NCBI GenBank assembly: GCA_005116955.1
Contig: SWDI01000003.1
Coordinates: forward strand, 146,308-181,840
Source: Nitrospira sp.
GTDB taxonomy: Bacteria > Nitrospirota > Nitrospiria > Nitrospirales > Nitrospiraceae
Length of the DNA: 35,533 nt
Reading direction: 5' to 3'
Every line of letters begins with the position of its first letter. Positions within the stretch are counted from its first letter, which is position 1. The translations under genes and the position numbers were made by a program. This document shows, piece after piece, positions 7,739-35,533 of this stretch. The notes under the pieces are model-generated. The model made no database searches. It was not told the DNA's origin and saw only the letters and a program-made list of their open reading frames with translations.

Positions 7739-7782
7739 GCCTAGTCTTTATCGTGGTGACAGTCGTGCCAGGCTCTGATTCC

Positions 7783-8601
7783 ATGGAAGAAGAACCGAAA
7801 CATCCTCCCCAGGGCATCAACCCTCTCACCCAGCAAGCTGGTGACGAGCCGCTGGCCGGTGGTGTAGCCGATCAGATGCTGGCTGTGTCTTCCGCTGTCG
7901 ACGAGAGAGCAGGTAGTCAAGGCACGGTCGCTCTTGATGAAGAGCAGGTCAAGGATGAGATCGACATTCAGGTCGATCTGCTGAGTGATCCTGACTGGGT
8001 GGTCCGCCGCGAAGCGGTCATTACTCTGGGCGAGATGGGTGATGAACGGTGTGTCGAACCGCTGGCCCGCGCGCTACGCGACGGTGACTGGCAGGTTCGA
8101 GAGGTCGCTATCGAGGCGATGGGGCAAGTGGGCTCTCCTGCCGTGGAGACTCTTCTCAAATTGCTCCGCGATTGGGAGGTCCGTAAATACGCGATTGCTG
8201 CGCTTGGGAAAATCCGTGACGAACGGGTCCTTGATCCCTTGATGCTTCAGCTTCGGAACGATGAGTTTAAAGACGATGCCATTGATGCCTTGGTCGTACT
8301 GGGTGAGCCGTCCGTCGAGAGGCTGATCGGTGCCCTTCGTGATAAGGACGAAAATGTCCGTAAGTGTGCCGTCCTCGCGTTGGGGCGGATCAAGAGCGGT
8401 GAGGCCATTAATCCCCTGATCGGGATGCTCGGTCATAAAGACTGGTTTACGCGGTTGACGGCTGCCGCCGCGTTGGAGTCGATCGGTGACGAGCGGGGCC
8501 GCGAGGCGATGAAGCCCTTGCTCAAGGATTCCGATATGGTGGTTAAGATGCGGGTGGAGCGAATTCTGGCGAAGTGGAAGACTCAACCGGCCAACGCCTG
8601 A
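7783..8601 (+). CDS. HEAT-repeat protein (PBS-lyase-type repeats), cytoplasmic
   Basis: 272 residues from the ATG at 7783; GTG at 7753 is an in-frame alternative, and neither has a strong ribosome-binding site. After an acidic, low-complexity N-terminal 60 residues come about six helical repeats of around 31 residues of the type 'LLSDPDWVVRREAVITLGEMGD', 'ALRDGDWQVREVAIEAMGQVG' and 'ALRDKDENVRKCAVLALGRI'. These are typical of HEAT_2/PBS lyase repeats, which form protein-interaction solenoids. The conserved D..VR..A...LG pattern is intact in nearly every repeat. There is no signal peptide, so it is probably a cytoplasmic scaffold; the partner is unknown. The gene converges with the next one, with 1 bp between them. 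Confidence 0.78.
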   Translation: MEEEPKHPPQGINPLTQQAGDEPLAGGVADQMLAVSSAVDERAGSQGTVALDEEQVKDEIDIQVDLLSDPDWVVRREAVITLGEMGDERCVEPLARALRDGDWQVREVAIEAMGQVGSPAVETLLKLLRDWEVRKYAIAALGKIRDERVLDPLMLQLRNDEFKDDAIDALVVLGEPSVERLIGALRDKDENVRKCAVLALGRIKSGEAINPLIGMLGHKDWFTRLTAAAALESIGDERGREAMKPLLKDSDMVVKMRVERILAKWKTQPANA

Positions 8602-9070: not shown

Positions 9071-10414
9071 TTAGTGGCGACGTTTGGATGAACTTAACCG
9101 GGTCAACTGCTGGAGCAGGCTGTTCGCACTCGCAATACGCACGGCCTCATCCGAATCTTGTAAGCCCTTAACTAGGAGCGGGATCGCACTCTCGCTGCTT
9201 TTCCGCAATCCCTTAGCGGCCATCAGGCGAGGAAGCGGCTGCTGGTCCTGGAAGAGCGTCTGAAGAACCGCCAAAGCGTCTTTCTCGGCGGAGGCACTCA
9301 AGGCCTGTGCCGCTGCGCCACGGATAGAAGGGTCGGAATGCCGAGCCAACTCTGTGGCTAGCGTGAGGGCGGAGGGATCGCCCAGGCGAATCAATCCCTC
9401 TGTGGCGCTGGCACGGACATGACTATTCGGGTCTCTCGTGAGTGCCTGCAGCAAGGGCCGATTGTCCTTGATGCCGAGCCTTCCAAGACTTGCCGCAGCG
9501 ACACCGCGAACCATCGCCATCTCGTCCCCGATTGCGTGGGTGAGCGGAGCCACGCCGCTAGCGGAGCCAAATTCTCCCAGTGCTCCGGCAGCGAACGCGC
9601 GCACCGATGGATCAGGATCATACACAGCTTGGGAGAGGATCGCCAGGCTGGCCGGACGTTTGAGGCGTCCCAATACCCCCAACGCGGCCATCCTCGTCTC
9701 TGAGTCCGGCAGGGTCGCGGCGCTGGTGATATCGTCCAGCTTTTCCGTATGTCCCAGTTTGAACAGGGCGGCGTAGGCGAAGATGGCCTCAGGCCCATCT
9801 TCAGTCCGAGCGATATCCAGAAACCGCTGCTGAACGTCAGTGGCTTGTGCATCCCCGAGCGCCGTCATCGCAGCGATACGGACGGTCGGCATGTCATCCC
9901 GCAACGCGCGACGCACGGCGCCGGATTTCGCCGCGAGTCCGGCTTTTCCGATCGCCTCGACGGCGCGCGCGCGTACGACTACCGAAGCGTCCAGTAAGCC
10001 ATCCTCTAAAATTGCCGAGGTCTCAGGCAAGCCCAATTCCGCAAGGGCCGAGTAGGCCGCAATACGAACATGCTCTTTTCGGTCTCGAACGTGGCCGGTG
10101 ATCACTCCGAGTGCCAATGGGCGAAGCAGCGAAGCATCAGAGGATTGCCCCGTCTGGTTCAATTTCGCATGGATGGCCAGGGCTTCGTCTGTTCGACCAA
10201 GTCGGACATAGCTCAGCAAGGAGAGCCGGAGGAGTGCGGTCGAGGGTGTCACGTCCGGTGGAAGACCTCGGTAGAGAGCGGTCACTTCGGGGTAGTCGCC
10301 GGCCTTGAAGAGGGCCGCAGCTTTCGATTCGACCGTGGAAGGGGTTCCTGCCGATGCAGGAAGGAGAGGCACTGTGCTGAGAATCAGCATGAGCGCGCCA
10401 ATGACACGCGTCAT
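9071..10414 (-). CDS. Secreted HEAT-repeat protein
   Basis: 447 residues from the ATG at 10414, chosen because it opens a clean signal peptide ('MTRVIGALMLILSTVPLLPASAG'-type, cleavage near residue 23). The frame extends to 10579, and another ATG at 10480 overlaps the glgP stop by 7 bases. Residues 30-110 form a TPR-like helical region ('AAALFKAGDYPEVTALY', 'RLGRTDEALAIHAKL'). About ten HEAT/PBS-lyase-type repeats of around 31 residues then run to the C-terminus ('ALRDDMPTVRIAAMTALGDA', 'DPDPSVRAFAAGALGEFG', 'DPNSHVRASATEGLIRLGD'). It is probably a periplasmic interaction scaffold. It follows glgP closely and precedes the membrane-anchored protein, suggesting an operon. Confidence 0.75.
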   Translation of the reverse strand: MTRVIGALMLILSTVPLLPASAGTPSTVESKAAALFKAGDYPEVTALYRGLPPDVTPSTALLRLSLLSYVRLGRTDEALAIHAKLNQTGQSSDASLLRPLALGVITGHVRDRKEHVRIAAYSALAELGLPETSAILEDGLLDASVVVRARAVEAIGKAGLAAKSGAVRRALRDDMPTVRIAAMTALGDAQATDVQQRFLDIARTEDGPEAIFAYAALFKLGHTEKLDDITSAATLPDSETRMAALGVLGRLKRPASLAILSQAVYDPDPSVRAFAAGALGEFGSASGVAPLTHAIGDEMAMVRGVAAASLGRLGIKDNRPLLQALTRDPNSHVRASATEGLIRLGDPSALTLATELARHSDPSIRGAAAQALSASAEKDALAVLQTLFQDQQPLPRLMAAKGLRKSSESAIPLLVKGLQDSDEAVRIASANSLLQQLTRLSSSKRRH

Positions 10415-10473
10415 GGCAGTCGGAGTGACGCCCTGGTCGCGTATCAGTGAGCGATCCGCTGCGTCGAACCGAG

Positions 10474-12624
10474 TCACCATGTCGTCGGTGGCCGCACCGT
10501 GGCGGCGCGGTACATCAGACCAACATAGTCCTTCAGCATGCGCGTGGTACAGAACTGGGGCGCGATGGTGCGGATACATTCTTTGACCATTTGGAGCCAG
10601 CCCCGGGGGATCCCGTCACGATCACGCTGATAGAACAGCGGCACAGCCTCTTGTTCCAATATGCGATAGAGCTGTTCCGCATCATGATCATCCTGCGCCT
10701 TCGTGTCGGCCTGTTCGCTGAGTGGCTGGATGCCCCACCCGTTGGCTCCATTATATCCTTCCACCCACCAGCCATCGACGACGCTGAGATTCAACACGCC
10801 GTTCAGGGCGGCTTTCATGCCGCTGGTGCCGCTGGCTTCCATCGGAAAGCGCGGGGTGTTCAACCAAATGTCGACGCCCTGGACAAGATATTTCGCCATA
10901 TGCATCTCGTAGTTTTCCAAGAACGCAACGCGACCGCCAAGTTTGTGGTCATGGCAGAAGTTCAGTACCTCGTGAATGAAGTATCGCCCCGGTTCATCGG
11001 CCGGGTGGGCCTTTCCGGCGAAGATAAGTTGGACCGGCCGCCAGCGGTCTTGGAGGAGTGCTTTCAGTCGTTCCAGGTCTCGGAAGAGCAAGGTGGCCCG
11101 TTTGTACGTCGCAAACCGCCTGGCAAAGCCAATGGTCAAAGCCTCGGGATCCAGGAGCGTGCCGCGTGTGAGCACTTGAGATGGCTGAAGATGTCCATGC
11201 ATCCAGCCACCCCGGGCTCGTTCACGGATAAACCCCATCAGTTTCCGCTTCATCGCTTGTCGGGCCGCCCACAGCTCGTGGTCGGGAACGTCCATCACCC
11301 GCTGCCACATAGCTGGATCATCGCAGGTATCGGTCCAGGTTGGGCTGAGCGACTTGCTGTAGAGATGGTGTAGCTCCGGCGAGACCCACGTTGGCGCATG
11401 AATGCCGTTGGTCACGCTGCGGATGGGGACTTGGTCGGCCGGCAACCCCGGCCAGAAGTGTTGCCACATCTCTCGTGAGACGCGGCCATGTTCGCGGCTG
11501 ACGCCGTTGACGTGGGCCGACAGGCGCATGACTAGCGCCGTCATATTAAAGCCGTGTCCGTGCGACTCGGGAGTTTCTCCAAGGCGGAGGAACTCGTCAC
11601 GCGAGAGGCCCAGTTGTTCCCAATAGCCGGCAAAGTATCGATCCATCAGATGGTGTGGGAAGACATCGTGCCCGGCCGGTACAGGGGTGTGCGTGGTGAA
11701 CACGGTGCTCTGACGGACCAGCTCGCAGGCTTCGGCATGGGACGACCCCTTTTGAACAAACTCACGTACCCGCTCCAAGGTGAGGAAGGCCGAGTGCCCT
11801 TCGTTGGCATGCCAGATCGATGGCGAGATATTGAGCGCGCGTAACATGCGCACGCCGCCGATCCCCAATAAGATCTCCTGACAGAGGCGCATTTCTTGGT
11901 CCCCACCGTAGAGACGGGCGGAGAGGGCTCGATCCTCCGGGCTGTTTTCCGGCACATCCGTATCGATGAGAAAGAGCGAGATTCTCCCCACCAGCACTTT
12001 CCAGACAGTCGCGGTCACCCGGCGGCCGCCCATCTCGACGGCAAACCGGCACGGCTCTCCCGACGGAGTCAGGGCCAGATGAACCGGAGATTCGTCGCGG
12101 TTGAACGGGGCGTAGGCCGCCTCTTGCCACCCTTCTGGCGTGATTCGCTGGCGGAAATATCCCTGCGGGTACATGAATCCGATTCCGACGAATGACAAGC
12201 CAATGTCGCTCGCCTCCTTGCAATGGTCTCCGGCCAAGATTCCGAGACCACCGCTATAAATGGGTACGGAGGCATGCAATCCAAATTCGGCCGAGAAGTA
12301 CGCAATCGTCGACTTCGTCAGATTAGCATGGTGTGTCCCGACCCAACTTTTCTTGTTGACCAGATATTCGTCAAACAGGCGGAACACTGCCGAGTATTGG
12401 CGGAGAAACGACGGATCTTCGGCCAAGTGCGTGAACCGGTCCGGTCTGACATCGGACAGAAGCTTGACCGGATTATGGTGCGTGAGAAACCACAGAGTCG
12501 GATCGATCACCTCGAACAGTTGGCGAGCTTCCAAGGTCCAACTCCACCAGAGATTTCGTGCTAGCTCGGGTAGACGATTGAGGGTTTGCGGGAGAGAGCT
12601 GTTTACCGCGTTAGAAGAATCCAC
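10474..12624 (-). CDS. glgP: Alpha-glucan (glycogen) phosphorylase
   Basis: 716 residues. It releases glucose-1-phosphate from alpha-1,4-glucans with pyridoxal phosphate. Hallmarks include 'TIAYFSAEFGLHASVPIYSGGLGILAGDH', 'WHANEGHSAFLTLER', 'VFTTHTPVPAGHD', 'VTNGIHAPTW', 'FARRFATYKRA' and the PLP-lysine motif 'MEASGTSGMKAALNG' (Lys about 604). Length and motifs fit the shorter archaeal/bacterial type of about 700 residues (glycosyltransferase family 35, 'alpha-glucan family phosphorylase') rather than the 800-residue E. coli MalP/GlgP type. GTG at 12624 is chosen because AAAGGAG stands 5 bases before it; the upstream TTG at 12642 would place that site inside the gene. It sits in a minus-strand run between an unknown gene and a HEAT-repeat gene. 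Confidence 0.92.
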   Translation of the reverse strand: MDSSNAVNSSLPQTLNRLPELARNLWWSWTLEARQLFEVIDPTLWFLTHHNPVKLLSDVRPDRFTHLAEDPSFLRQYSAVFRLFDEYLVNKKSWVGTHHANLTKSTIAYFSAEFGLHASVPIYSGGLGILAGDHCKEASDIGLSFVGIGFMYPQGYFRQRITPEGWQEAAYAPFNRDESPVHLALTPSGEPCRFAVEMGGRRVTATVWKVLVGRISLFLIDTDVPENSPEDRALSARLYGGDQEMRLCQEILLGIGGVRMLRALNISPSIWHANEGHSAFLTLERVREFVQKGSSHAEACELVRQSTVFTTHTPVPAGHDVFPHHLMDRYFAGYWEQLGLSRDEFLRLGETPESHGHGFNMTALVMRLSAHVNGVSREHGRVSREMWQHFWPGLPADQVPIRSVTNGIHAPTWVSPELHHLYSKSLSPTWTDTCDDPAMWQRVMDVPDHELWAARQAMKRKLMGFIRERARGGWMHGHLQPSQVLTRGTLLDPEALTIGFARRFATYKRATLLFRDLERLKALLQDRWRPVQLIFAGKAHPADEPGRYFIHEVLNFCHDHKLGGRVAFLENYEMHMAKYLVQGVDIWLNTPRFPMEASGTSGMKAALNGVLNLSVVDGWWVEGYNGANGWGIQPLSEQADTKAQDDHDAEQLYRILEQEAVPLFYQRDRDGIPRGWLQMVKECIRTIAPQFCTTRMLKDYVGLMYRAATVRPPTTW

Positions 12625-12636: not shown

Positions 12637-12688
12637 GGTCAAGATCAGGTAATCAGGGTCGGCAATGACGGGCGATCACCAGTTGCGA

Positions 12689-13525
12689 TCAGGCGTGCCC
12701 AGCCTTATGCCACGAGGCCCAGTCTTTGGAGAATGCCACGGCGGCATAACGTTCGCCAAGGACTTTAGCAACTCGGTTCAGGAGTTTGGAGAGTTGCTGC
12801 AGCTCGGAAGTGGTGAGGTCCTCACGGAACCGGGGGTGGAGTCCCCAACGGGTTTCTACTTCTTCGCCCGACACGCTCGACATCAAGCTGACAAGCTTGA
12901 TCTCCTGGCCGGTCGACTTGTTCTGTTCCGTCGATGTCTCGACAGCTGGAAGCACAATCTGCGACGGTCCCTGAGAGGGAGGAGCTTGTCCTTGCAGGAC
13001 TGCGCTGAGTGCCGGCACGACCGCGCTGGCGCAGAGCGTCGCCGCAGAACTGAGCCGCGCGTTGCCGACTGTGCCGAGGGCCTCGGCGACTTTGTCGCCG
13101 AAGTCGCGGAACATCTCGTTCTTCGTCTTGGAGTCTTCGGTGATCAGGAACTTGTATTGCTCGTACGCCTGCCGACTCTCCGATACGGTCGTGCCGATGG
13201 TCATGACGATTTCCATCTGATCCGCATTGTTCCCGAACGCTGGTTCCAGCGCACGTTTTAGCTGTTGGGTGACGGCATCTTCCAGCCCGTTCATGAACTC
13301 CAACTGGTCTTTCAACGGGATGTGCAAGGCCACCAGCCGGTCCGTGAGATTGAACATAATCTTGAGGAATTCGAGGTAGATGCCCCACTCCTCCTGCCGC
13401 TTGAGCTTGAGTGCCTGCTCAGGTGCCGTGCGCTTCATCATCGTGACCGATTCGCCCGACACGGCGAGCATCAGTTCGGCCAGCTGGCGGAGGCGCTCTT
13501 GGTATGCAGTATTAGCGGTGGCCAT
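12689..13525 (-). CDS. Conserved-looking protein of unknown function
   Basis: 278 residues from the ATG at 13525; an in-frame TTG lies four codons upstream. The N-terminal 140 residues are helical and charged ('YQERLRQLAELMLAVSGE', 'EEWGIYLEFLKIMFNLTDRL'). A more hydrophobic Ala-rich stretch at about 160-185 ('SSAATLCASAVVPALSAVL') follows, then a Pro/Ser/Gln-rich linker. The C-terminal helical segment reads 'DLTTSELQQLSKLLNRVAKVLGERYAAVAF'. There is no signal peptide and no recognised family. It precedes glgP by 64 bp on the same strand, so co-transcription is plausible. Confidence 0.65.
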   Translation of the reverse strand: MATANTAYQERLRQLAELMLAVSGESVTMMKRTAPEQALKLKRQEEWGIYLEFLKIMFNLTDRLVALHIPLKDQLEFMNGLEDAVTQQLKRALEPAFGNNADQMEIVMTIGTTVSESRQAYEQYKFLITEDSKTKNEMFRDFGDKVAEALGTVGNARLSSAATLCASAVVPALSAVLQGQAPPSQGPSQIVLPAVETSTEQNKSTGQEIKLVSLMSSVSGEEVETRWGLHPRFREDLTTSELQQLSKLLNRVAKVLGERYAAVAFSKDWASWHKAGHA

Positions 13526-14346: not shown

Positions 14347-16374
14347 ATGGAACGAGAAGTCAAAACCTATGTACTGAAGCGACCTACTGAGGACGCCGTG
14401 CCGCGCAAGTTGTCGATCGACTACGCGGCGGCGCTGAATCCACAGCAGCTTGCAGCAGTGACGGCGGGTGATGGGCCGTCGTTGGTCATTGCGGGAGCTG
14501 GGAGTGGCAAGACGCGCACGCTGGTCTATCGCGTCGCGTATCTGATCGACTCCGGCGTGGATCCGTCGAACATTCTCTTGCTGACGTTCACGCGCAAGTC
14601 TTCACAGGAAATGTTGGAACGTGCTGGCGATCTGATCGGGACGAGTAGTCATCGGGTTTGTGGAGGGACGTTTCACTCTGTCGCCAACATGTTGTTGCGC
14701 CGCAATGGCCGGTCGATCGGCATTGAACCTGGGTTCACGATTCTGGATCGCGGCGATGCGGAAGACTTGATCGCTCTTGTGCGAGCGCAGCTGGGTCTCA
14801 ACGAGAAGGATAAACGCTTTCCCCGCAAGGGGACGATCATGGAAATGATCAGCAAGAGCGAGAACACGCTGCGCAGTCTCGATGAAATCATTCTGGAGGA
14901 GTTCAGTCATTTCTCGGATCATTCGGAAGATCTCGGTCGATTGCAGAAGGCGTATCAAGCTGCGAAGCGACAGAAGCAGTTGTTGGACTACGATGATCTC
15001 TTGGTCATGCTGCGGCAGTTGTTGTTGCTGGACGAGACGGCACGCACACATATTTCCCGCCAGTATCGCTATATCCTTGTGGATGAGTATCAAGATACGA
15101 ACCGGTTGCAGGCCGAAGTCATCCGTCAGCTGGCGACGACGCATCAGAATGTAATGGTGGTTGGGGATGATTCGCAGTCGATCTATGCGTTCCGGGGTGC
15201 GACCTTCAAGAATATCATGGACTTTCCAGTGCTGTTCCCGGGCACGACGATTTATAAACTCGAAGAAAATTATCGCAGCACCCAGCCGATCTTGAACCTC
15301 GCGAACTGCATTATCGATGAAGCGGCTGAGAAGTATACGAAGCGCCTGTTTACTAGAAAGATCGATGGTCCGTTGCCGGCGTTGGTCGAAGCGGCTGGAG
15401 AAAATGCACAATCCCGATTCATTGCGCAGAAGATTCTTGAGCTTCGTGAAGAAGGGGTGCCGTTGAGTGAGGTGGCGGTCCTCTTTCGTTCAAGCTTTCA
15501 TTCCTTTGATTTGGAAATCGAGCTGTCTCGAAAGGGGCTTCCTTTCATCAAGCGCGGTGGGGTGAAGTTTATCGAAACAGCTCATGTCAAGGATCTGCTG
15601 GCCCATGTGCGAGTCGTCGCAAACCCCCTTGATACGGTGAGCTGGCATCGCGTGCTGCTGCTGGTGGAAGGGGTGGGACCGAAGAAAGCGCAGGATTTGC
15701 TCGCCGCGATTGTGAAGGCTGAGCGACCCTATGACGTGTTACGCGGAGTGAGCGGCCGTTCCGGCCAGGGTCTCAAGAACTTGGCCAACACGCTGGAGAG
15801 TCTGGCTGGATCAGACGATCGGCAACCGGAACATCAAGTAAGCCATATCTACGAGTACTATCTCCCGATCCTCAAGGACCAGTACGACGATTATCCTAAG
15901 CGCACGAGGGATCTCGACCATCTCCATACGATTGCCGAGGGGTACCATGGCATCAACGAATTTCTTGCCGATTTGGCGTTGGAACCGCCTGATGGGAGTG
16001 CGGTGAATGTCGAAGCGCCTGATCGCGATGATGAACGGCTGGTGCTCTCGACGATTCATTCTGCGAAGGGGTTGGAGTGGCAGTGTGTCTTTGTGATCTG
16101 GGTGGTCGACGGCCGGTTTCCTTCCGCCTATTCCTTTCTTGCCGATGATGAACTGGAGGAAGAGCGGCGGCTTTTTTATGTGGCCGTTACGCGAGCCAAA
16201 CGGCATTTATTTATGACATACCCGATCAATGTGTACGACAAGACCAGCGGGATGTTGCTGTCGAAGCCCTCACGGTTTCTGGACCATGTGTCCTCGGACC
16301 TGCTTGATACCCTGGCATTGGTAGAGGAAGGCGGACGCGAGGATTGGGGAATGACACGAGACCCCTATTATTGA
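14347..16374 (+). CDS. UvrD/Rep/PcrA-family ATP-dependent DNA helicase
   Basis: 675 residues, a superfamily 1A 3'-5' helicase. All motifs are present in order: Q-motif 'LNPQQLAAV' (30-38), Walker A AGAGSGKT (49-56), Ia 'LLLTFTRKSS', Walker B 'YILVDEYQDTN', III 'VVGDDSQSIYAFRGA', IV 'LEENYRST', V 'VLSTIHSAKGLEWQCVFV' and VI 'EERRLFYVAVTRAKRHL'. The length is nearer Rep than UvrD/PcrA, and there is no extended C-terminal Tudor region. The protein probably acts in replication-fork restart or excision repair, but which paralogue it is cannot be settled here. It stands alone between a DUF4112 gene and a secreted HExxH protein. Confidence 0.92.
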   Translation: MEREVKTYVLKRPTEDAVPRKLSIDYAAALNPQQLAAVTAGDGPSLVIAGAGSGKTRTLVYRVAYLIDSGVDPSNILLLTFTRKSSQEMLERAGDLIGTSSHRVCGGTFHSVANMLLRRNGRSIGIEPGFTILDRGDAEDLIALVRAQLGLNEKDKRFPRKGTIMEMISKSENTLRSLDEIILEEFSHFSDHSEDLGRLQKAYQAAKRQKQLLDYDDLLVMLRQLLLLDETARTHISRQYRYILVDEYQDTNRLQAEVIRQLATTHQNVMVVGDDSQSIYAFRGATFKNIMDFPVLFPGTTIYKLEENYRSTQPILNLANCIIDEAAEKYTKRLFTRKIDGPLPALVEAAGENAQSRFIAQKILELREEGVPLSEVAVLFRSSFHSFDLEIELSRKGLPFIKRGGVKFIETAHVKDLLAHVRVVANPLDTVSWHRVLLLVEGVGPKKAQDLLAAIVKAERPYDVLRGVSGRSGQGLKNLANTLESLAGSDDRQPEHQVSHIYEYYLPILKDQYDDYPKRTRDLDHLHTIAEGYHGINEFLADLALEPPDGSAVNVEAPDRDDERLVLSTIHSAKGLEWQCVFVIWVVDGRFPSAYSFLADDELEEERRLFYVAVTRAKRHLFMTYPINVYDKTSGMLLSKPSRFLDHVSSDLLDTLALVEEGGREDWGMTRDPYY

Positions 16375-16418: not shown

Positions 16419-17309
16419 ATGAGCGACTGCCCAATTCGATTGCTCCTCGTATTATTGTGGTGCTGCTGGTCCGGGCCAGCTTTTCTCGCCGAGGCATCCG
16501 TCACATCTCTGAACCAGCAAGGCAGTGCCGGCCAAACGTGGATGCGTTTTCTCGCTGACGCGGAACGGCTCCGGTTGCCTGCGAAGTTTCTGAAGGCGCT
16601 CCCACCGGACTTTATTCAGTTTGAGTTCGATGATCTTCGGACCTACGCCGCCGAGTACCATCCCGGAGAGCATCGGATGGTCCTGAACCGGTCGTTGTCC
16701 TTTAACGCTGCGGGGAGGGTCCTCAAGCCGCTTGCCCAGATGACGCACAAGGAACTGGAGGTGCTCTATCATGAACTGTTTCATGCGTATATGGATTATC
16801 TCAGCCTTATAGAGGAGCAATCTCGTGAGGCTGGTAGCCGTTCAAAAGATCTGCTGGGCTTCGCCCGAGAGCAGCAAGTCTGTCGCTATAGTGAAGTGAA
16901 AATCGCACCGATTGTTCAGCGACAGAATGAAATGGAGTCGCGCTACTTGACGCAGGCCGAGTCGTGGGAAGCGCTGAATGAAACATGGGCCGTCTTTATT
17001 GGCTGGACCGTGTGGAATCAGCTTGAGGTACAGCACAAGACCGGGAAATCTATGTTTCAGGGGCGGGGGCAAGCTCATCGATGGATACGGCGACTCAAAA
17101 CGGCATTTGAGAAGGTGGAGCTCCGAGGGTACTATGTCCCTGAAGATCCCGAAGAACGACGTCTTGCCCAGAAGCGATATTTGGCGAAACCGTCACAGCT
17201 AACACTACGGGAAGCCGTGGTTTTGATGAAGCAAGTCCTCGGTTTTCAGTATGATTTTGTTGAGGAGTTGGAAGCGTCATTCGGGTCATCTCAGCCATCT
17301 TCCTGTTAG
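16419..17309 (+). CDS. Secreted HExxH putative metallopeptidase
   Basis: 296 residues with an N-terminal signal peptide (hydrophobic residues 7-23, possible cleavage after AEA at 24-26). A zinc-protease-type motif HELFH lies at 118-122 ('LEVLYHELFHAYMDYL'). Downstream, 'ESWEALNETWAVFIGW' (181-196) supplies acidic residues, of which Glu188 could be the third metal ligand as in gluzincins. The segment before the motif ('HPGEHRMVLNRSL') resembles the edge strand that often precedes HExxH. No exact family is recognised and the catalytic assignment is inference. It starts 44 bp after the helicase stop without an obvious ribosome-binding site. Confidence 0.65.
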   Translation: MSDCPIRLLLVLLWCCWSGPAFLAEASVTSLNQQGSAGQTWMRFLADAERLRLPAKFLKALPPDFIQFEFDDLRTYAAEYHPGEHRMVLNRSLSFNAAGRVLKPLAQMTHKELEVLYHELFHAYMDYLSLIEEQSREAGSRSKDLLGFAREQQVCRYSEVKIAPIVQRQNEMESRYLTQAESWEALNETWAVFIGWTVWNQLEVQHKTGKSMFQGRGQAHRWIRRLKTAFEKVELRGYYVPEDPEERRLAQKRYLAKPSQLTLREAVVLMKQVLGFQYDFVEELEASFGSSQPSSC

Positions 17310-18005: not shown

Positions 18006-18087
18006 TGCAGGGCTTGCTTGATCCGGGGTGCAAGTAGTAGGGCGCGACGGGTTGACACCTTCAGTGTTCTAGACAAAGGAGTGGGTT

Positions 18088-20093
<2,006 letters not shown>

Positions 20094-27505: not shown

Positions 27506-27532
27506 CGTGGTGAATTAGGAGGGGGTGGCATT

Positions 27533-28738
<1,206 letters not shown>

Positions 28739-30121: not shown

Positions 30122-30199
30122 GCCGATCGGTCGACGTCGGTCTTCAGTCGTGTGAGGGCTGAAGGTTGAGTGTCGATCGCGAAGGAGAAAGAGAGCGAA

Positions 30200-30625
30200 A
30201 TGGCGAAAGAAGTTTCGGCACAGATCAAGTTGCAAATTCCGGCTGGCAAGGCCAATCCGGCTCCTCCTGTCGGTCCCTCGTTGGGACAGCATGGGGTCAA
30301 CATTATGGAGTTTTGTAAGCAGTTCAATGCCAAGACCCAGAAGGACGGGGATAGTATTATCCCTGTCATCATTACGGTCTACAAGGACCGTACCTTCAGC
30401 TTTATTATGAAGACTCCTCCAGCGTCTGACCTCCTCAAGAAAGCTGCTGGGATCATCAAGGGATCTGGTGTGCCACAGAAAGATAAGGTGGGGAAAATCA
30501 CCAGGCAACAGTTGGACGAAATTGCTCGGAAGAAGATGGCTGATCTGAACGCGGCTGATGTGGAAGGGGCGACGAAAATCATCGAAGGTACTGCCCGTAG
30601 TATGGGTGTCGTTATTCAAGGCTAA
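30200..30625 (+). CDS. rplK: 50S ribosomal protein L11
   Basis: 141 residues from the ATG at 30200 ([12 protein letters not shown]). A GAAGGAG site lies 12 bases upstream, and an in-frame start at 30170 would add ten residues not typical of the family. Contains the proline-rich N-domain '[22 protein letters not shown]' and the rRNA-binding C-domain '[20 protein letters not shown]'. It is part of the GTPase-associated centre, the thiostrepton target. rplA follows after 26 bp, forming the L11 operon. Confidence 0.96.
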
Positions 30626-30635
30626 TGCCAAGATC

Positions 30636-30642
30636 GAAGGAG
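30636..30642 (+). promoter_or_regulatory. Ribosome-binding site deciding the rplA start
   Basis: GAAGGAG with 9 bases to the ATG at 30652. It supports that start over the in-frame ATG at 30625, which overlaps the rplK stop. Confidence 0.75.
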
Positions 30643-30651
30643 CGTCTGGTC

Positions 30652-31344
30652 ATGGGAAAGAAAATGAATGCGGCGATCAAAAATCTTGAGCCGCGTGTCT
30701 ACGGGTTGCGCGAGGCCGTTGAAACCGTGAAGCGATCGGCCTATGCGAAGTTTGATGAATCGGTTGATCTTGCGCTGAGGCTAGGAATCGATCCGAAGCG
30801 CTCGGATCAGCTGGTTCGAGGGACGGCGTCGCTTCCTCACGGCACGGGGAAAAAGGTTCGCGTCTTGGTATTTGCCAAGGGTGAAAAGGAGCAGGAGGCG
30901 CGACAAGCCGGGGCTGACTATGTTGGGGCTGACGACTTGATGGAGAAAATCAAGGGCGGATGGATGGAGTTCGATTGCGCGATTTCCACGCCGGATCTTA
31001 TGGCCTCGGTTGGGAAGCTCGGTAAAGTGCTCGGACCTCGCGGGTTAATGCCGAACCCTAAGACTGGCACTGTGACCTTCGAAGTTGGGAAAGCGGTCGC
31101 TGATATTCGAAAAGGGCGTGTAGAGTTCAAGGTTGAGAAAGCCGGTATCGTGCATGTGCCGGTCGGAAAAGTGTCCTTCGATCCTGCGAAGCTGTACGAC
31201 AATGCCTCGGCCATCATTGAATCCGTCATCAAGGCAAAGCCTGCCTCCTGTAAGGGGCGTTATCTCAAGAGTGCCACGATTGCGAGCACGATGGGGCCTG
31301 GTGTGATATTGGATACCGTTGCGCTGACCAAACAGTGGAGTTGA
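30652..31344 (+). CDS. rplA: 50S ribosomal protein L1
   Basis: 230 residues from ATG 30652. Signatures: '[21 protein letters not shown]', '[22 protein letters not shown]', '[35 protein letters not shown]' and '[24 protein letters not shown]'. L1 forms the mobile L1 stalk and in many bacteria represses its own L11 operon by binding the mRNA. The next gene begins 86 bp later, after a region able to form small hairpins. Confidence 0.96.
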
Positions 31345-31379
31345 GACACGCGTTCAACGTGAATCGTTCCTCGCGATTC
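31340..31379 (+). promoter_or_regulatory. Candidate rplJ leader hairpins
   Basis: Two adjacent inverted repeats overlap the rplA stop and fill the leader: GTTGA/TCAAC (31340-31358) and GAATCG/CGATTC (31361-31379). L10 leaders bind the L10-L12 complex for autoregulation in other bacteria. A match to that structure was not shown here. Confidence 0.3.
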
Positions 31380-31430
31380 GCTGGACGGATGATATTGAGC
31401 GGATAACGAATAGCGACCAGAGAGGGAGTG

Positions 31431-32366
31431 ATGAAGAAGGAAGAGAAAGTTACGGCAGTGGCGGAGTTGACCGAAAAATTCGGTCGCGCCCGGCTGGCTA
31501 TCCTGACGGAATGCGTCGGGCTTCCGGTCAACGAGGTCACCGAGTTGCGCAAGCAGCTCCGCGGGGCCAAGGCAGAATATCGAATCGTGAAGAATACGCT
31601 CGCGGCGCGTGCCGCCGAAGGGACGGTCTTGGCCGGACTCAAGGTTCATCTCAAGGGACCGACCGGAGTCGTCATCGGGTACGACGATCCGGTGTTGCCG
31701 ACCAAGGTGTTGAAGGACTTCATCGGTGCTGAAAAGCGAGACCAGAAGATTCGCATCACGGCCGGGGTGCTGGAAGGCAAGATTCTCCAGCCGGCTGAAC
31801 TGGCAGCCGTTGCGAAACTGCCGAAGAAGGAAGTGCTGATTGCGATGTTGCTGTCGGCCATGCAGGGGCCAATTCGTGGAGTCGTCTATACATTGAGTGC
31901 GGTCTTGTCAAAGTTTGTACGAGTCATTGCAGCCATTCAGGATAAACGGAAAGGAGAAGGGGACATGCCAGCTACAGAGGGAAAGTTATCACAAGAGGAA
32001 TTGATTAAGGCGATCGAAGGAATGAGCGTGCTCGACCTGGCCGAATTAGTGAAAGGGTTAGAGACGCGGTTTGGAGTGACAGCGGCGGCTCCGGTTGCCA
32101 TGGCTGCGGCGCCGGCTGCAGGTGGTGGGGCGGTGGCTCCTGCTGAAGAGCAGACGGCATTCGACGTCATTCTCGCGTCGGTACCGGCAGACAAGAAGAT
32201 CCAAATCATCAAGGTGGTTCGCGAGTTGACGAGTCTCGGCTTGAAGGAAGCTAAGGACCTTGTGGAGGGCGCACCGAAGCCAGTCAAGACTGGGGTGGCT
32301 AAGGAAGAAGCCGACACGATGAAGAAGAAGCTTGAAGAAAGCGGTGCCAAGGTCGAAGTCAAGTAA
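31431..32366 (+). CDS. rplJ: Ribosomal protein L10, in frame and unterminated into L7/L12 (L10-L12 fusion frame)
   Basis: A single open frame of 311 codons from ATG 31431 (a GTG at 31428 is directly before it). Residues 1-178 are L10: '[20 protein letters not shown]', '[23 protein letters not shown]' and '[15 protein letters not shown]', ending in the helical '[21 protein letters not shown]'. L10 proteins are typically 165-180 residues, so a stop is expected here. Instead the frame passes GGG GAC ATG straight into the L7/L12 start. L10 carries L12 dimers on its C-terminal helix at the ribosomal stalk, so the joint falls exactly at the natural contact. Either a covalent L10-L12 protein is made, with extra free L12 from internal initiation, or one base is wrong in the assembly. 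Confidence 0.85.
31950..31956 (+). promoter_or_regulatory. Strong internal ribosome-binding site for rplL
   Basis: AAAGGAG, 8 bases before the ATG at 31965, lies inside the L10 coding frame. It shows that L12 can be started independently although no stop codon separates it from L10. Confidence 0.8.
31965..32366 (+). CDS. rplL: 50S ribosomal protein L7/L12 (internal start within the L10 frame)
   Basis: 133 residues from ATG 31965, preceded by AAAGGAG. The N-terminal dimerisation domain '[31 protein letters not shown]' is followed by an Ala/Pro/Gly hinge ('[21 protein letters not shown]'). The C-terminal factor-binding domain reads '[43 protein letters not shown]', as in all bacterial L12. L12 recruits translation GTPases and is normally present in four to six copies per ribosome. 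The reading frame is shared with and continuous from L10, so the same segment may also be made as the tail of a fusion. rpoB follows after 125 bp. Confidence 0.95.
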
Positions 32367-32450
32367 GGAAGTGAGTTCGTCATAGTTGCGGCTGTTCTGG
32401 TGTTCGCCGAAGGCGGAGGTTTCTCGATGTTACGGGAATCTGTCGTCAGT

Positions 32451-32467
32451 GGTGACTGCTGTTCACC
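32451..32467 (+). promoter_or_regulatory. Candidate hairpin in the rplL-rpoB gap
   Basis: GGTGA/TCACC with a 7-base loop, 25 bases before rpoB. In other bacteria this gap holds a partial terminator and RNase processing site. The stem here is short with no U-run, so the role is uncertain. Confidence 0.25.
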
Positions 32468-32491
32468 GCCAACCAGCGTGGAGGAGTAGGC

Positions 32492-35400
32492 ATGTCCGAA
32501 ACGACTCTGCAGGAGTTCGTCGAGCGGAAAGATTTTTCTCGCATTCGAACCAATATCGATATTCCGGATCTGATTGAAATACAGAAGCGCTCCTACGAAG
32601 AGTTTTTGCAGTTTGAGGTCGAATCTGAGCGCCGGAAGGATCATGGATTGCAGGCGGCGTTGGCCAGCGTGTTTCCGATTCCAGATTATAACAACACGGC
32701 CGTGCTCGAATTTTCGAGTTATACCTTAGGGACGCCAAAGTACGACGAGCGAGAATGTCTTGAGCAGGGTATGACCTACGCAGTTCCGTTGAAGCTGCGT
32801 GTCCGCCTGGTGGTGCTAGATAAAGAAGATAAGGGTCCGCGCAAGAAAGTGCTCGATGTGCGCGAGCAAGAAGTCTATGTCGGGGAATTGCCGCTCATGA
32901 CCGAGCGCGGGACATTTATCGTCAACGGGACCGAGCGCGTCGTCGTCAGTCAGCTGCACCGGTCGCCGGGCGCGTCGTTTACGCATGATAAGGGCAGGAC
33001 TCATGCGAGCGGCAAGGTGTTGTATTCGGCCCGCATTATTCCCTATCGGGGCTCATGGCTCGATTTCGAGTTCGATGCCAGGGATATTCTTTATGTGCGA
33101 ATCGATCGTCGTCGGAAAATGCCGACTACTATTCTGTTAAAGGCCTTCGGTTTTTCGAGCGACGACTTGCTGAAGATGTACTATCCTGTCGAAGACATTC
33201 GCGTGTCCCAGGGGAAGATGTTCCGCAAGCTGGATTCAGAAATCCACCATGGACTTCGCTGCTCCGCTGAAGTGACGGATAAGAGTGGGAAAGAGATCTT
33301 GGTGCGAGAGGGGGCCAGGCTGACGAAGGGGATGATTGCCAAGCTGAAGGCTTCTGGAGTGAAGGAGATTCCCTTGTTGCCTGCGGAGTTGGTGGGGCGT
33401 GCCACCCTTACGGAATTGGTCGACTCGAAGAAGAACGTGTTGGCGGAGAAAAATCAGCGATTGACTGCCGAGATTGTGGAGCAGATCACTGAAAGCGATG
33501 TAGAGGAATTCAAGGTCATTTATCTGGATATGGCAACCGCTACGCCGGTCATTCTTGATACCTTGTTGATGGAGAAGATCGGGTCAAAAGAAGAAGCGAT
33601 GGTCGAAATATACCGTCGCCTCCGTCCCGGTGAGACACCGTCGGTGGATACAGCCAGAGCCTTATTCGACAATCTATTTCTGAATTCCAAGCGCTATGAT
33701 TTGTCCCCGGTCGGTCGGCTCAAGCTCAATAAGAAACTCGGTTTGGACTTACCGCTCGAGCAGCGTACCTTGACCGCGCAGGACATCGTGGAAGTCGTCC
33801 GCTATATCGTCAATCTGAAGATCGGCAAAGGGGAAATCGACGATATTGATCACTTGGGGAATCGCCGGGTGCGATCCGTCGGTGAGCTCTTGGAAAATCA
33901 ATTCCGACTGGGCTTGGTGCGGATGGAGCGGAGCATCAAAGAGCGCATGAATCTTCTCGATATGGAAACGGTGCTACCGCACGACTTGATCAATGCTAAG
34001 CCGGTCGTCGCGGCCGTCAAGGAGTTTTTCAGCAGCAGCCAGCTGTCTCAATTTATGGATCAGACGAACCCCCTGGCTGAAATCACGCATAAACGGCGTC
34101 TGTCCGCTCTTGGCCCAGGAGGACTCACGAGGGAACGGGCTGGGTTCGAAGTGCGAGACGTGCATCCGTCTCACTACAGCCGCATTTGCCCGATTGAGAC
34201 ACCGGAAGGTCCTAATATCGGCTTGATTACATCGCTGGCCACTTATGCACGGATCAACCAGTTCGGATTCATTGAGGCGCCATATCGCAAGGTCGTCAAG
34301 GGACGTGTAACTGATGAGATTGAGTTTCTCTCGGCGATCGAAGGGGATAAATACATCATCGCCCAAGCCAACTCGAAATTGGATGGATCCTCCAGGTTGG
34401 TATCAGAAACCGTCTCGTGTCGTCACGGTGGAGACTTTGTTCTGGCCGCCCCGGATAAGATTGAGTACATGGACGTGTCGCCAAAGCAAGTGGTGAGCGT
34501 AGCGACCGCGCTTGTGCCGTTCTTGGAGCATGACGACGCCAATCGTGCACTGATGGGTTCCAATATGCAGCGCCAGGCGGTTCCGTTGGTCACATCGGAG
34601 GCTCCTCTGGTGGGGACCGGGATGGAAGCGGTGGTCGCGCGAGATTCTGGGTATGTTATTCAGGCTCGTCGGGCCGGGGTCGTGGAGAGCGTCGATGCTA
34701 CCCGCATCGTCGTGCGGGCCGATTCGAAGGATTCGAAGGATGGGAAGAAGGGTAAGGATTCCGGGTTGGACGTCTATGACTTGATCAAGTTTCAGCGATC
34801 GAACCAAAACACCTGCATTACTCAGACGCCAGTGGTTCGGCTTGGCCAGCCGGTTAAGAAGGGGCAGGTGCTTGGAGATGGACCAGCCATTGATCATGGC
34901 GAACTCGCGTTGGGCAAGAATGTCCTTGTGGCGTTCATGCCCTGGGGTGGGTACAACTTCGAGGACGCCATATTGCTCAGTGAAAAACTGGTCCGCGAAG
35001 ACGCTTTCACGTCGATCCATATCGAAGAGTTCGAAGTGGAAGCGCGGGATACCAAGCTGGGGAAGGAAGATGTCACGCGAGATATTCCCAATGTCGGAGA
35101 AGAGGCGCTGAGAAATTTGGACGAGAGCGGGATTATCCGGATCGGTGCCGAAGTAAAGCCTGGCGATATTTTGGTTGGAAAGGTGACGCCTAAAGGGGAA
35201 ACCCAGCTGACCCCGGAAGAAAAACTGCTCCGTGCGATCTTCGGTGAGAAGGCCGGCGATGTGAAGGATACATCGTTGACCGTGCCTCCTGGAGTGGAAG
35301 GTATCGTAGTCGACGTCAAGATTTTCTCTCGCAAAGGACTCGATAAAGATGAGCGTTCAAAGAGCATTGAGACTGACGATCAGATAAAGTTGCAGCGTGA

Positions 35401-35533
35401 TCACCATGAAGAGCTACGGATCATTGATGAAGAGAAAACGAAAAAGATTCGCAAGCTCTTGCTGGGGAAGGTCGTTGGACGTGATCTGATGGACCCTGAG
35501 AGTGGCGACGTTATCTTGAAGAAGAAGGGTAAG
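32492..35533 (+). CDS. rpoB: RNA polymerase beta subunit, N-terminal 1014 codons (runs off window)
   Basis: Open from ATG 32492 to the right edge with no stop (1014 codons). It contains the classic beta blocks: '[22 protein letters not shown]', the rifampicin region '[32 protein letters not shown]' (residues 514 onward) and '[18 protein letters not shown]'. Residues equivalent to E. coli Asp516, His526 and Ser531 (Asp523, His533, Ser538 here) are the sensitive type. '[26 protein letters not shown]' and '[14 protein letters not shown]' follow. The last 99 bases (codons 982-1014) repeat 19071-19169 exactly, where the missing C-terminal part is found. The gene is therefore split only by where the assembled sequence was cut. 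Confidence 0.95.
35435..35533 (+). repeat. 99-bp exact repeat, terminal copy
   Basis: The last 99 bases of the window, identical to 19071-19169. Their natural context is this one: they continue the rpoB frame from upstream without a break. Confidence 0.95.

Follow-up and report, generated by a model that had tools for sequence, protein, structure and literature searches.

An open L10–L12 reading frame with a conserved internal ATG for L12 in Nitrospira and its order

The L12 stalk of the ribosome delivers translational GTPases, and the C-terminal helix of L10 is the place where several L12 dimers are bound at the stalk base. In the stretch of DNA analyzed here (35,533 nucleotides of contig SWDI01000003.1 from the Nitrospira sp. 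assembly GCA_005116955.1; hereafter, the window), no stop codon separates rplJ from rplL. This raises the question of whether L10 and L12 are made as a single chain in this lineage, and, if so, from where the free L12 of the stalk would be supplied.

The first-pass annotation of this DNA had placed L10 and L12 in one uninterrupted frame, with an L10 part of 178 codons and an AAAGGAG motif eight bases ahead of an internal L12 ATG. These readings were borne out: translation of the window yields a 311-residue product without an internal stop (Table 1), and the codons across the junction are CGG AAA GGA GAA GGG GAC ATG CCA. The frame could alternatively begin at a GTG at 31428. The L10 part (residues 1–178) scores 163.8 bits against the NCBIfam model NF000955 (cut-off, 85) and is thus a member of the uL10 family, while the L12 part (residues 179–311) scores 155.6 bits against TIGR00855 (cut-off, 84.4), as expected for bL12. 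At the level of domains, PF00466 covers residues 1–97 of the fused chain (93 bits; Pfam cut-off, 22.8), and both the L12 dimerisation domain (PF16320) and the L12 C-terminal domain (PF00542) are found above their cut-offs in the same chain. The computed masses of the fusion and of the 133-residue free L12 are 32.9 and 13.7 kDa, respectively. Model matches identified secE, nusG, rplK, rplA and rpoB as the neighbors of the fused gene. The genome to which the window belongs is 99.84% complete (8 contigs), and in it the whole fused protein, L10 and the L12 dimerisation domain each match once.

Table 1. Positions of the fused rplJ–rplL frame, its parts, and the adjacent genes in the window.
Feature	Position	Strand	Remarks
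rplK (L11)	30170–30625	+	TIGR01632; upstream
rplA (L1)	30625–31344	+	TIGR01169; upstream of the fused frame
GAGAGGGAG, purine-rich, before the L10 ATG	31420–31428	+	Probable L10 ribosome-binding site (predicted)
Fused rplJ–rplL frame	31431–32366	+	311 codons plus TAA (32364–32366)
L10 (uL10) part	31431–31964	+	178 codons; RNA-binding domain and full-length C-terminal helix; NF000955
Internal Shine-Dalgarno AAAGGAG	31950–31956	+	In-frame, part of Lys-Gly-Glu; 8 bases before the L12 ATG
Linker codons KGEGD, L10 helix to L12	31950–31964	+	Overlaps the internal Shine-Dalgarno
L12 (bL12) part	31965–32366	+	133 codons from the internal ATG, plus stop; TIGR00855
L12 ATG	31965–31967	+	Internal start
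rpoB, 5' part up to the scaffold gap	32492–35533	+	TIGR02013 positions 4–934; downstream

A stop codon between rplJ and rplL in close relatives had been named beforehand as one result that would overturn the fusion. No such stop was found: the L10–L12 junction is open in all 157 genomes of the order (one per species; the order is one which we take to be Nitrospirales) that have a match to the gene. Within the genus, 73 of the 79 genomes searched have a match, and all 73 are open across the junction. In 71 of these, the full 311-residue alignment runs in one frame without a stop; in the remaining two, contig ends divide the gene beyond the junction (G037) or the frame breaks inside L10 (G021), and the junction itself is open in both. 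The other 84 matching genomes of the order (51 of the same family, 33 of other families) are likewise open (84/84), 83 of them over the full length without a stop, whereas in G095 the gene is cut by contig ends, both of which read through the junction. Three of the 157 genomes (G021, G037, G095) were therefore judged via contig ends or past frame breaks elsewhere. The complete isolate genome of Nitrospira moscoviensis NSP M-1 (locus L067, with the coordinates of G003) has an open junction too. The family and order genomes were drawn from a sample of the phylum (395 genomes, in which 19 further genomes without a match had no placement), and membership in the order follows the kinship labels of the genome collection. 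In a pattern search, all 80 loci were fused, but one of the patterns (KRKGEGDM) spans the junction, hence this count is biased and has no value as a frequency.

Eleven genomes of the order (six of the genus and five of the family) gave no match. They were considered as possible counter-examples to the fusion and rejected as such, since all 11 were also without L1, as well as without L10 and L12; the joint absence of these genes indicates that the whole block is missing from those assemblies.

The search with the L12 dimerisation domain found a match in 90 of 98 genomes inside the order, exactly once in each (90/90), and thus no second L12 gene was found by this domain, although a diverged copy lacking a recognizable dimerisation domain would escape such a search. 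In 89 of the 90 genomes, the match lies in a frame of at least 308 aa, the exception (206 aa) being G021 with its broken frame. The same search brought in four order genomes (G421–G424) that carry L12 in frames of 309–415 aa, and two (G420 and G425) that have no match to the dimerisation domain. The whole fused protein was located at one place per genus genome, except for split or fragment matches in G021, G037 and G024, and only one L10 was detected with PF00466 in each of the three order genomes that matched (3/3).

Outside the order, the picture within the same phylum is different. All of the non-order genomes with a match in the phylum sample (222) were searched with the L12 dimerisation domain; 219 of them show L12, each once, in frames of 57–195 aa, which are too short to hold L10 as well, with the reservation that frames at contig ends may be cut short and that frame length is no guide for at least one genome (G340, where the frame lies at the start of a contig). 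The remaining three (G213, G323, G355) gave no match to this domain. At all 16 outgroup junctions that matched as one piece in one frame, and were selected on that basis, L10 ends with a TAA stop, and 15 to 81 nt separate this stop from the likely start of L12, the shortest spacers (15 nt) being those of L158 and L160. An excerpt of the Nitrospina gracilis genome paper gives rplJ and rplL under separate locus tags (PMC3578206). As judged from these sequences, the fusion is present throughout the order, within the limits of the sampling, and was not seen around the order in the phylum, which is the scope of this survey. The simple reading would be that it arose once, in the ancestor of the order.

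To characterize the internal start, 133 distinct sequences from 167 full-length fused loci were compared; of the 172 loci of the order, the five from G095 (cut by contig ends, one of them taken for L1) were left out, and the last Met was taken as the L12 start in the two loci with two Met (L145 and L146). The internal ATG is invariant (133/133). It is followed by Ser (64 sequences), Pro (60) or Ala (9) without exception, while the same three residues follow only 209 of the 746 other internal Met codons of these proteins, and none of the L10 start codons. With a residue as small as Ser, Pro or Ala in second place, the initiator Met can be removed, in the manner of a genuine N-terminus. A comparable constraint was observed at the nucleotide level upstream of the ATG. 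At the Lys codon five positions before it, AAA is used in 129 of 130 cases, compared with a share of 24% among Lys codons in the rest of these genes. At the Gly codon four positions before it, GGA and GGG together account for 125 of 125 cases, compared with 47% elsewhere; among 44 representatives across families, the corresponding counts are 40/41 and 41/41. This codon bias indicates that nucleotides are held for ribosome binding beyond the need of the peptide. The predicted pairing with the anti-Shine-Dalgarno sequence within the 20 nt before the internal ATG has a median of −8.7 kcal/mol (−12.5 to −7.3; n = 133), and that before the L10 ATG a median of −8.0 kcal/mol (−11.9 to −4.5; n = 132, one sequence being dropped for N). 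A conserved internal start codon with a predicted ribosome-binding site, as in a nested gene, is thus present in the fused frame. Given that no other L12 gene was found, any free L12 would derive either from this internal start or from cleavage of the fusion.

The distance from the end of the L10 helix to the L12 Met is 9, 10, 12 and 13 codons in 3, 122, 7 and 1 sequences, respectively; as the 133 sequences were chosen as full-length open frames, both the absence of stops and the whole-codon differences in this set arise partly by construction. Of the 104 changes that parsimony on a tree of these sequences assigns to the four codons preceding the ATG, 75 fall at third positions (13 at first and 16 at second), a bias that is partly due to the Shine-Dalgarno codons and that a purine-rich spacer could mimic; within the two codons nearest to the ATG, the third positions take 45 of 67. 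The linker nevertheless appears to evolve like coding sequence, with coding periodicity, and variants such as KGEGD, KEEGD, KGESS, KEDS and KGMGE are found in different families. There is no stop codon between the two parts at which a ribosome translating L10 could leave.

The helix that would carry the L12 dimers seems to be unaffected by the fusion. L10 of Thermotoga maritima is of the three-L12-dimer type, and the L10 part aligns to it (1zav; 3–173 to 5–178) with no gaps through the C-terminal helix, which has the same length in both proteins; the gap-free alignment indicates that the dimer-binding helix is complete and has not been shortened. According to an excerpt of PMC4592705, it is the length of the C-terminal part of L10 that determines how many dimers are bound, E. 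coli having two and Thermus thermophilus three. The AlphaFold model of the full-length protein was unusable (mean pLDDT, 39). A 90-residue fragment was predicted to consist of the L10 helix, followed by the linker as a coil and by two N-terminal helices of L12 (mean pLDDT, 73; pTM, 0.56); this model is consistent with a flexible tether and gives no sign of docking onto the L10 helix. A structure search with the same fragment returned no match at E ≤ 0.001. The L10 leader RNA (RF00557, Rfam) had no match at E ≤ 1 in the window at 31300–32480, nor at the other four order loci searched (4/4). Among outgroups, it matched at only 1 of 16 loci (L153), below the gathering score, which indicates that the model is insensitive in this phylum.

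Taken together, the open frame, the coding periodicity of the linker, the single L12, and the conserved ATG, Shine-Dalgarno and second residue are best read in the way that the first-pass annotation had proposed, as one nested gene giving both an obligatory L10–L12 fusion and a separately initiated free L12, a reading to which we assign a probability of about 0.78. Initiation at the L10 ATG followed by read-through of the linker would yield the 311-aa protein, so that each L10 would be born with one L12 on its C-terminal helix, whereas initiation at the internal ATG would yield the free 133-aa L12, which would dimerise and fill the remaining sites. In its simplest form, the stalk would then hold six copies of L12, of which one belongs to the fusion chain and five are free; the tethered copy would pair with one of the free copies, most probably at the outermost site, which adjoins the linker. 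Such a stalk would need about five internal initiations per L10 initiation, a ratio that would be set by the two start sites in one message. No L10 without L12 would exist, and one L12 per stalk would be permanent instead of exchangeable. The 1:5 ratio and the outermost position of the tethered L12 are inferences, and the L10:L12 stoichiometry and the autoregulation may differ from the usual ones, as the first-pass annotation had proposed. Whether the whole order shares an asymmetric, partly covalent stalk of this kind, with one tethered L12 (paired with a free one, outermost), five exchangeable L12 and a ratio arising from two starts, as an independent bacterial solution comparable to P0 of archaea and eukaryotes, an anchor with its own tail, is in our estimation evenly balanced.

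The main competing account is that of a polyprotein, in which the fusion is made and a protease cuts the linker, releasing L10 and L12 as ordinary separate chains. Flanked by a helix on one side and a domain on the other, and predicted to be coil, the linker would be accessible, and cleavage would restore the usual stalk. However, the linker residues vary between families, and their constant part is explained by the Shine-Dalgarno codons. Moreover, cutting alone gives L10 and L12 at 1:1, and thus the internal start would still be needed; we regard this account as distinctly improbable. Another account parts from the preferred one on selection and not on products, and the odds of the two overlap: nearly all L12 would come from the internal start and the covalent link would bring no benefit, the stop having been lost by chance as the L12 ribosome-binding site came against the end of L10. 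The good conservation of the Shine-Dalgarno and the 15-nt spacers of some outgroups (L158 and L160, mentioned above) are in line with such an event, but no stop has been regained in any of the 157 genomes, the linker lengths differ by whole codons, and only one L10 was found in the genomes examined for it (split or fragment matches aside), which implies that every L10 is still a fusion. Chance loss of the stop without benefit is considered unlikely, though with an appreciable chance of being right.

Two further possibilities concern the junction itself. A Shine-Dalgarno inside a frame can promote slippage, and programmed frameshifting in the linker might free some L10 from L12; in 90 of the 133 sequences, the +1 frame reaches a stop 37 nt past the ATG. 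The position of this stop is variable, though, ranging from 1 to 58 nt in the +1 frame and from −4 to 392 nt in the +2 frame, where 12 of the 133 sequences have none, and no slippery motif caught attention. Release of L10 by frameshifting was thought unlikely because the shifted-frame stops are not constant in position, and we consider it very improbable. An error of sequencing or assembly might be suspected as well, given that the scaffold of the window is mis-ordered elsewhere, around two tuf copies, and the first-pass annotation had cautioned that a single wrong base could mimic the fusion. The scaffold fault lies at least 3.2 kb outside the fused frame, and the same open junction is shared by relatives in 157/157 genomes, the complete isolate genome included; a single-base error is thereby excluded, error at the junction is refuted by the relatives, and the chance left to this explanation is negligible.

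The nested L10–L12 gene can be compared with several known systems. The classical L10(L12)4/6 stalk of E. coli, B. subtilis (rplJL) and Thermotoga involves the same two protein families, the same rplK–rplA–rplJ–rplL–rpoB neighborhood, and a full-length L10 C-terminal helix. In the classical L10(L12)n stalk, L10 and L12 are encoded in separate frames, whereas the Nitrospira fusion is one chain, and no independent L12 gene was found. Separate frames were seen in none of the 157 order genomes with a match, and L12 was single in 90/90. Judging by sequence, it is the covalent link and the nested start that would set the fusion apart from the ordinary stalk, which in B. subtilis is L10(L12)4, according to an excerpt of PMC4538822.

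In archaea and eukaryotes, the tail of P0 resembles the factor-binding tail of P1; bL12 and P1 are not known to be homologous. In excerpts of PMC3794596 and PMC6791870, the archaeal stalk is described as aP0-(aP1)2-(aP1)2-(aP1)2, and P0 as an anchor of the L10 type that has a spine helix for the dimers as well as its own C-terminal tail. P0 differs from the fusion in that it carries only the tail, lacking a complete L12 able to dimerise, and in that its gene is not nested and has no internal start; the likeness is no more than a resemblance, which is probably convergent. The PRK04019 models, which we take to represent the archaeal L10/P0 group, score 34.5 and 22.4 bits (cut-offs, 381 and 341), and the fused protein is thus not of the P0 type.

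Fusions of rpoB and rpoC (beta/beta'; models PRK09603 and PRK14844) also join adjacent operon genes for one complex into one chain. The rpoB–rpoC fusion is not known to need extra copies of one partner, hence no internal start. Cas11, in an excerpt of PMC11899642, is produced from an internal in-frame start in cas8 or cas10 (types I-B, I-C and I-D), its extra C-terminal copies joining the same complex. As proposed for the L10–L12 gene, one frame gives a large subunit and internal-start C-terminal copies, although the proteins are unrelated, and Cas11 is a small subunit encoded within a large one, while the L10–L12 gene, as read from the outgroups, would be a merger of two old separate genes. 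No description of an L10–L12 fusion was found among the matches listed in the open-licence PMC literature, and as subscription journals are mostly outside that search, a prior description cannot be excluded.

The group around Nitrospira comprises nitrite and ammonia oxidisers, and the fusion provides a clean order-level marker for this ecologically important group. An excerpt of PMC4592705 calls the reason why the stalk needs several L12 dimers a mystery. A lineage in which one L12 is unable to leave would allow a direct test of stalk stoichiometry, of L12 exchange, and of the link between L10 and L12 supply. In practical terms, automatic annotation may split or merge the fused rplJ–rplL gene.

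Several other features of the window and of the assemblies were recorded. Around the two tuf copies, at 18086–20093 and 35435–35533 of the window, the scaffold has been put together in the wrong order. The segment at 18086–19070 is 96% identical to tuf at 27531–28515 and joins a 3' part of rpoB at 19071; the sequence at 19071–19169, in turn, equals 35435–35533 exactly, and past the end of the window a run of N is followed by the 3' part of tuf. Based on this duplicated and mis-joined tuf–rpoB sequence, the truncated EF-Tu frame at 18088–19125 is very probably an assembly artefact. In several other genomes of the order, rated up to 99% complete (G265, G180, G376, G378 and others), L1, L10 and L12 are jointly absent, and in many more, the rplJL block lies on a contig of about 15 kb; the block between the two tuf repeats has probably been lost or isolated in assembly. 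At 14347–16374, the window encodes a UvrD/PcrA-like helicase (675 aa) that does not reach the curated cut-off of any of the 19 models listed for it, with a best score of 449 bits vs. 911 for PcrA. Two long frames with no Pfam match at E ≤ 1e-5, at 12665–13261 (198 aa) and 16419–17309 (296 aa), are putative genes. Finally, two frames rich in HEAT repeats (PF13646), at 9071–10579 and 7753–8601, are found on opposite strands within 3 kb.
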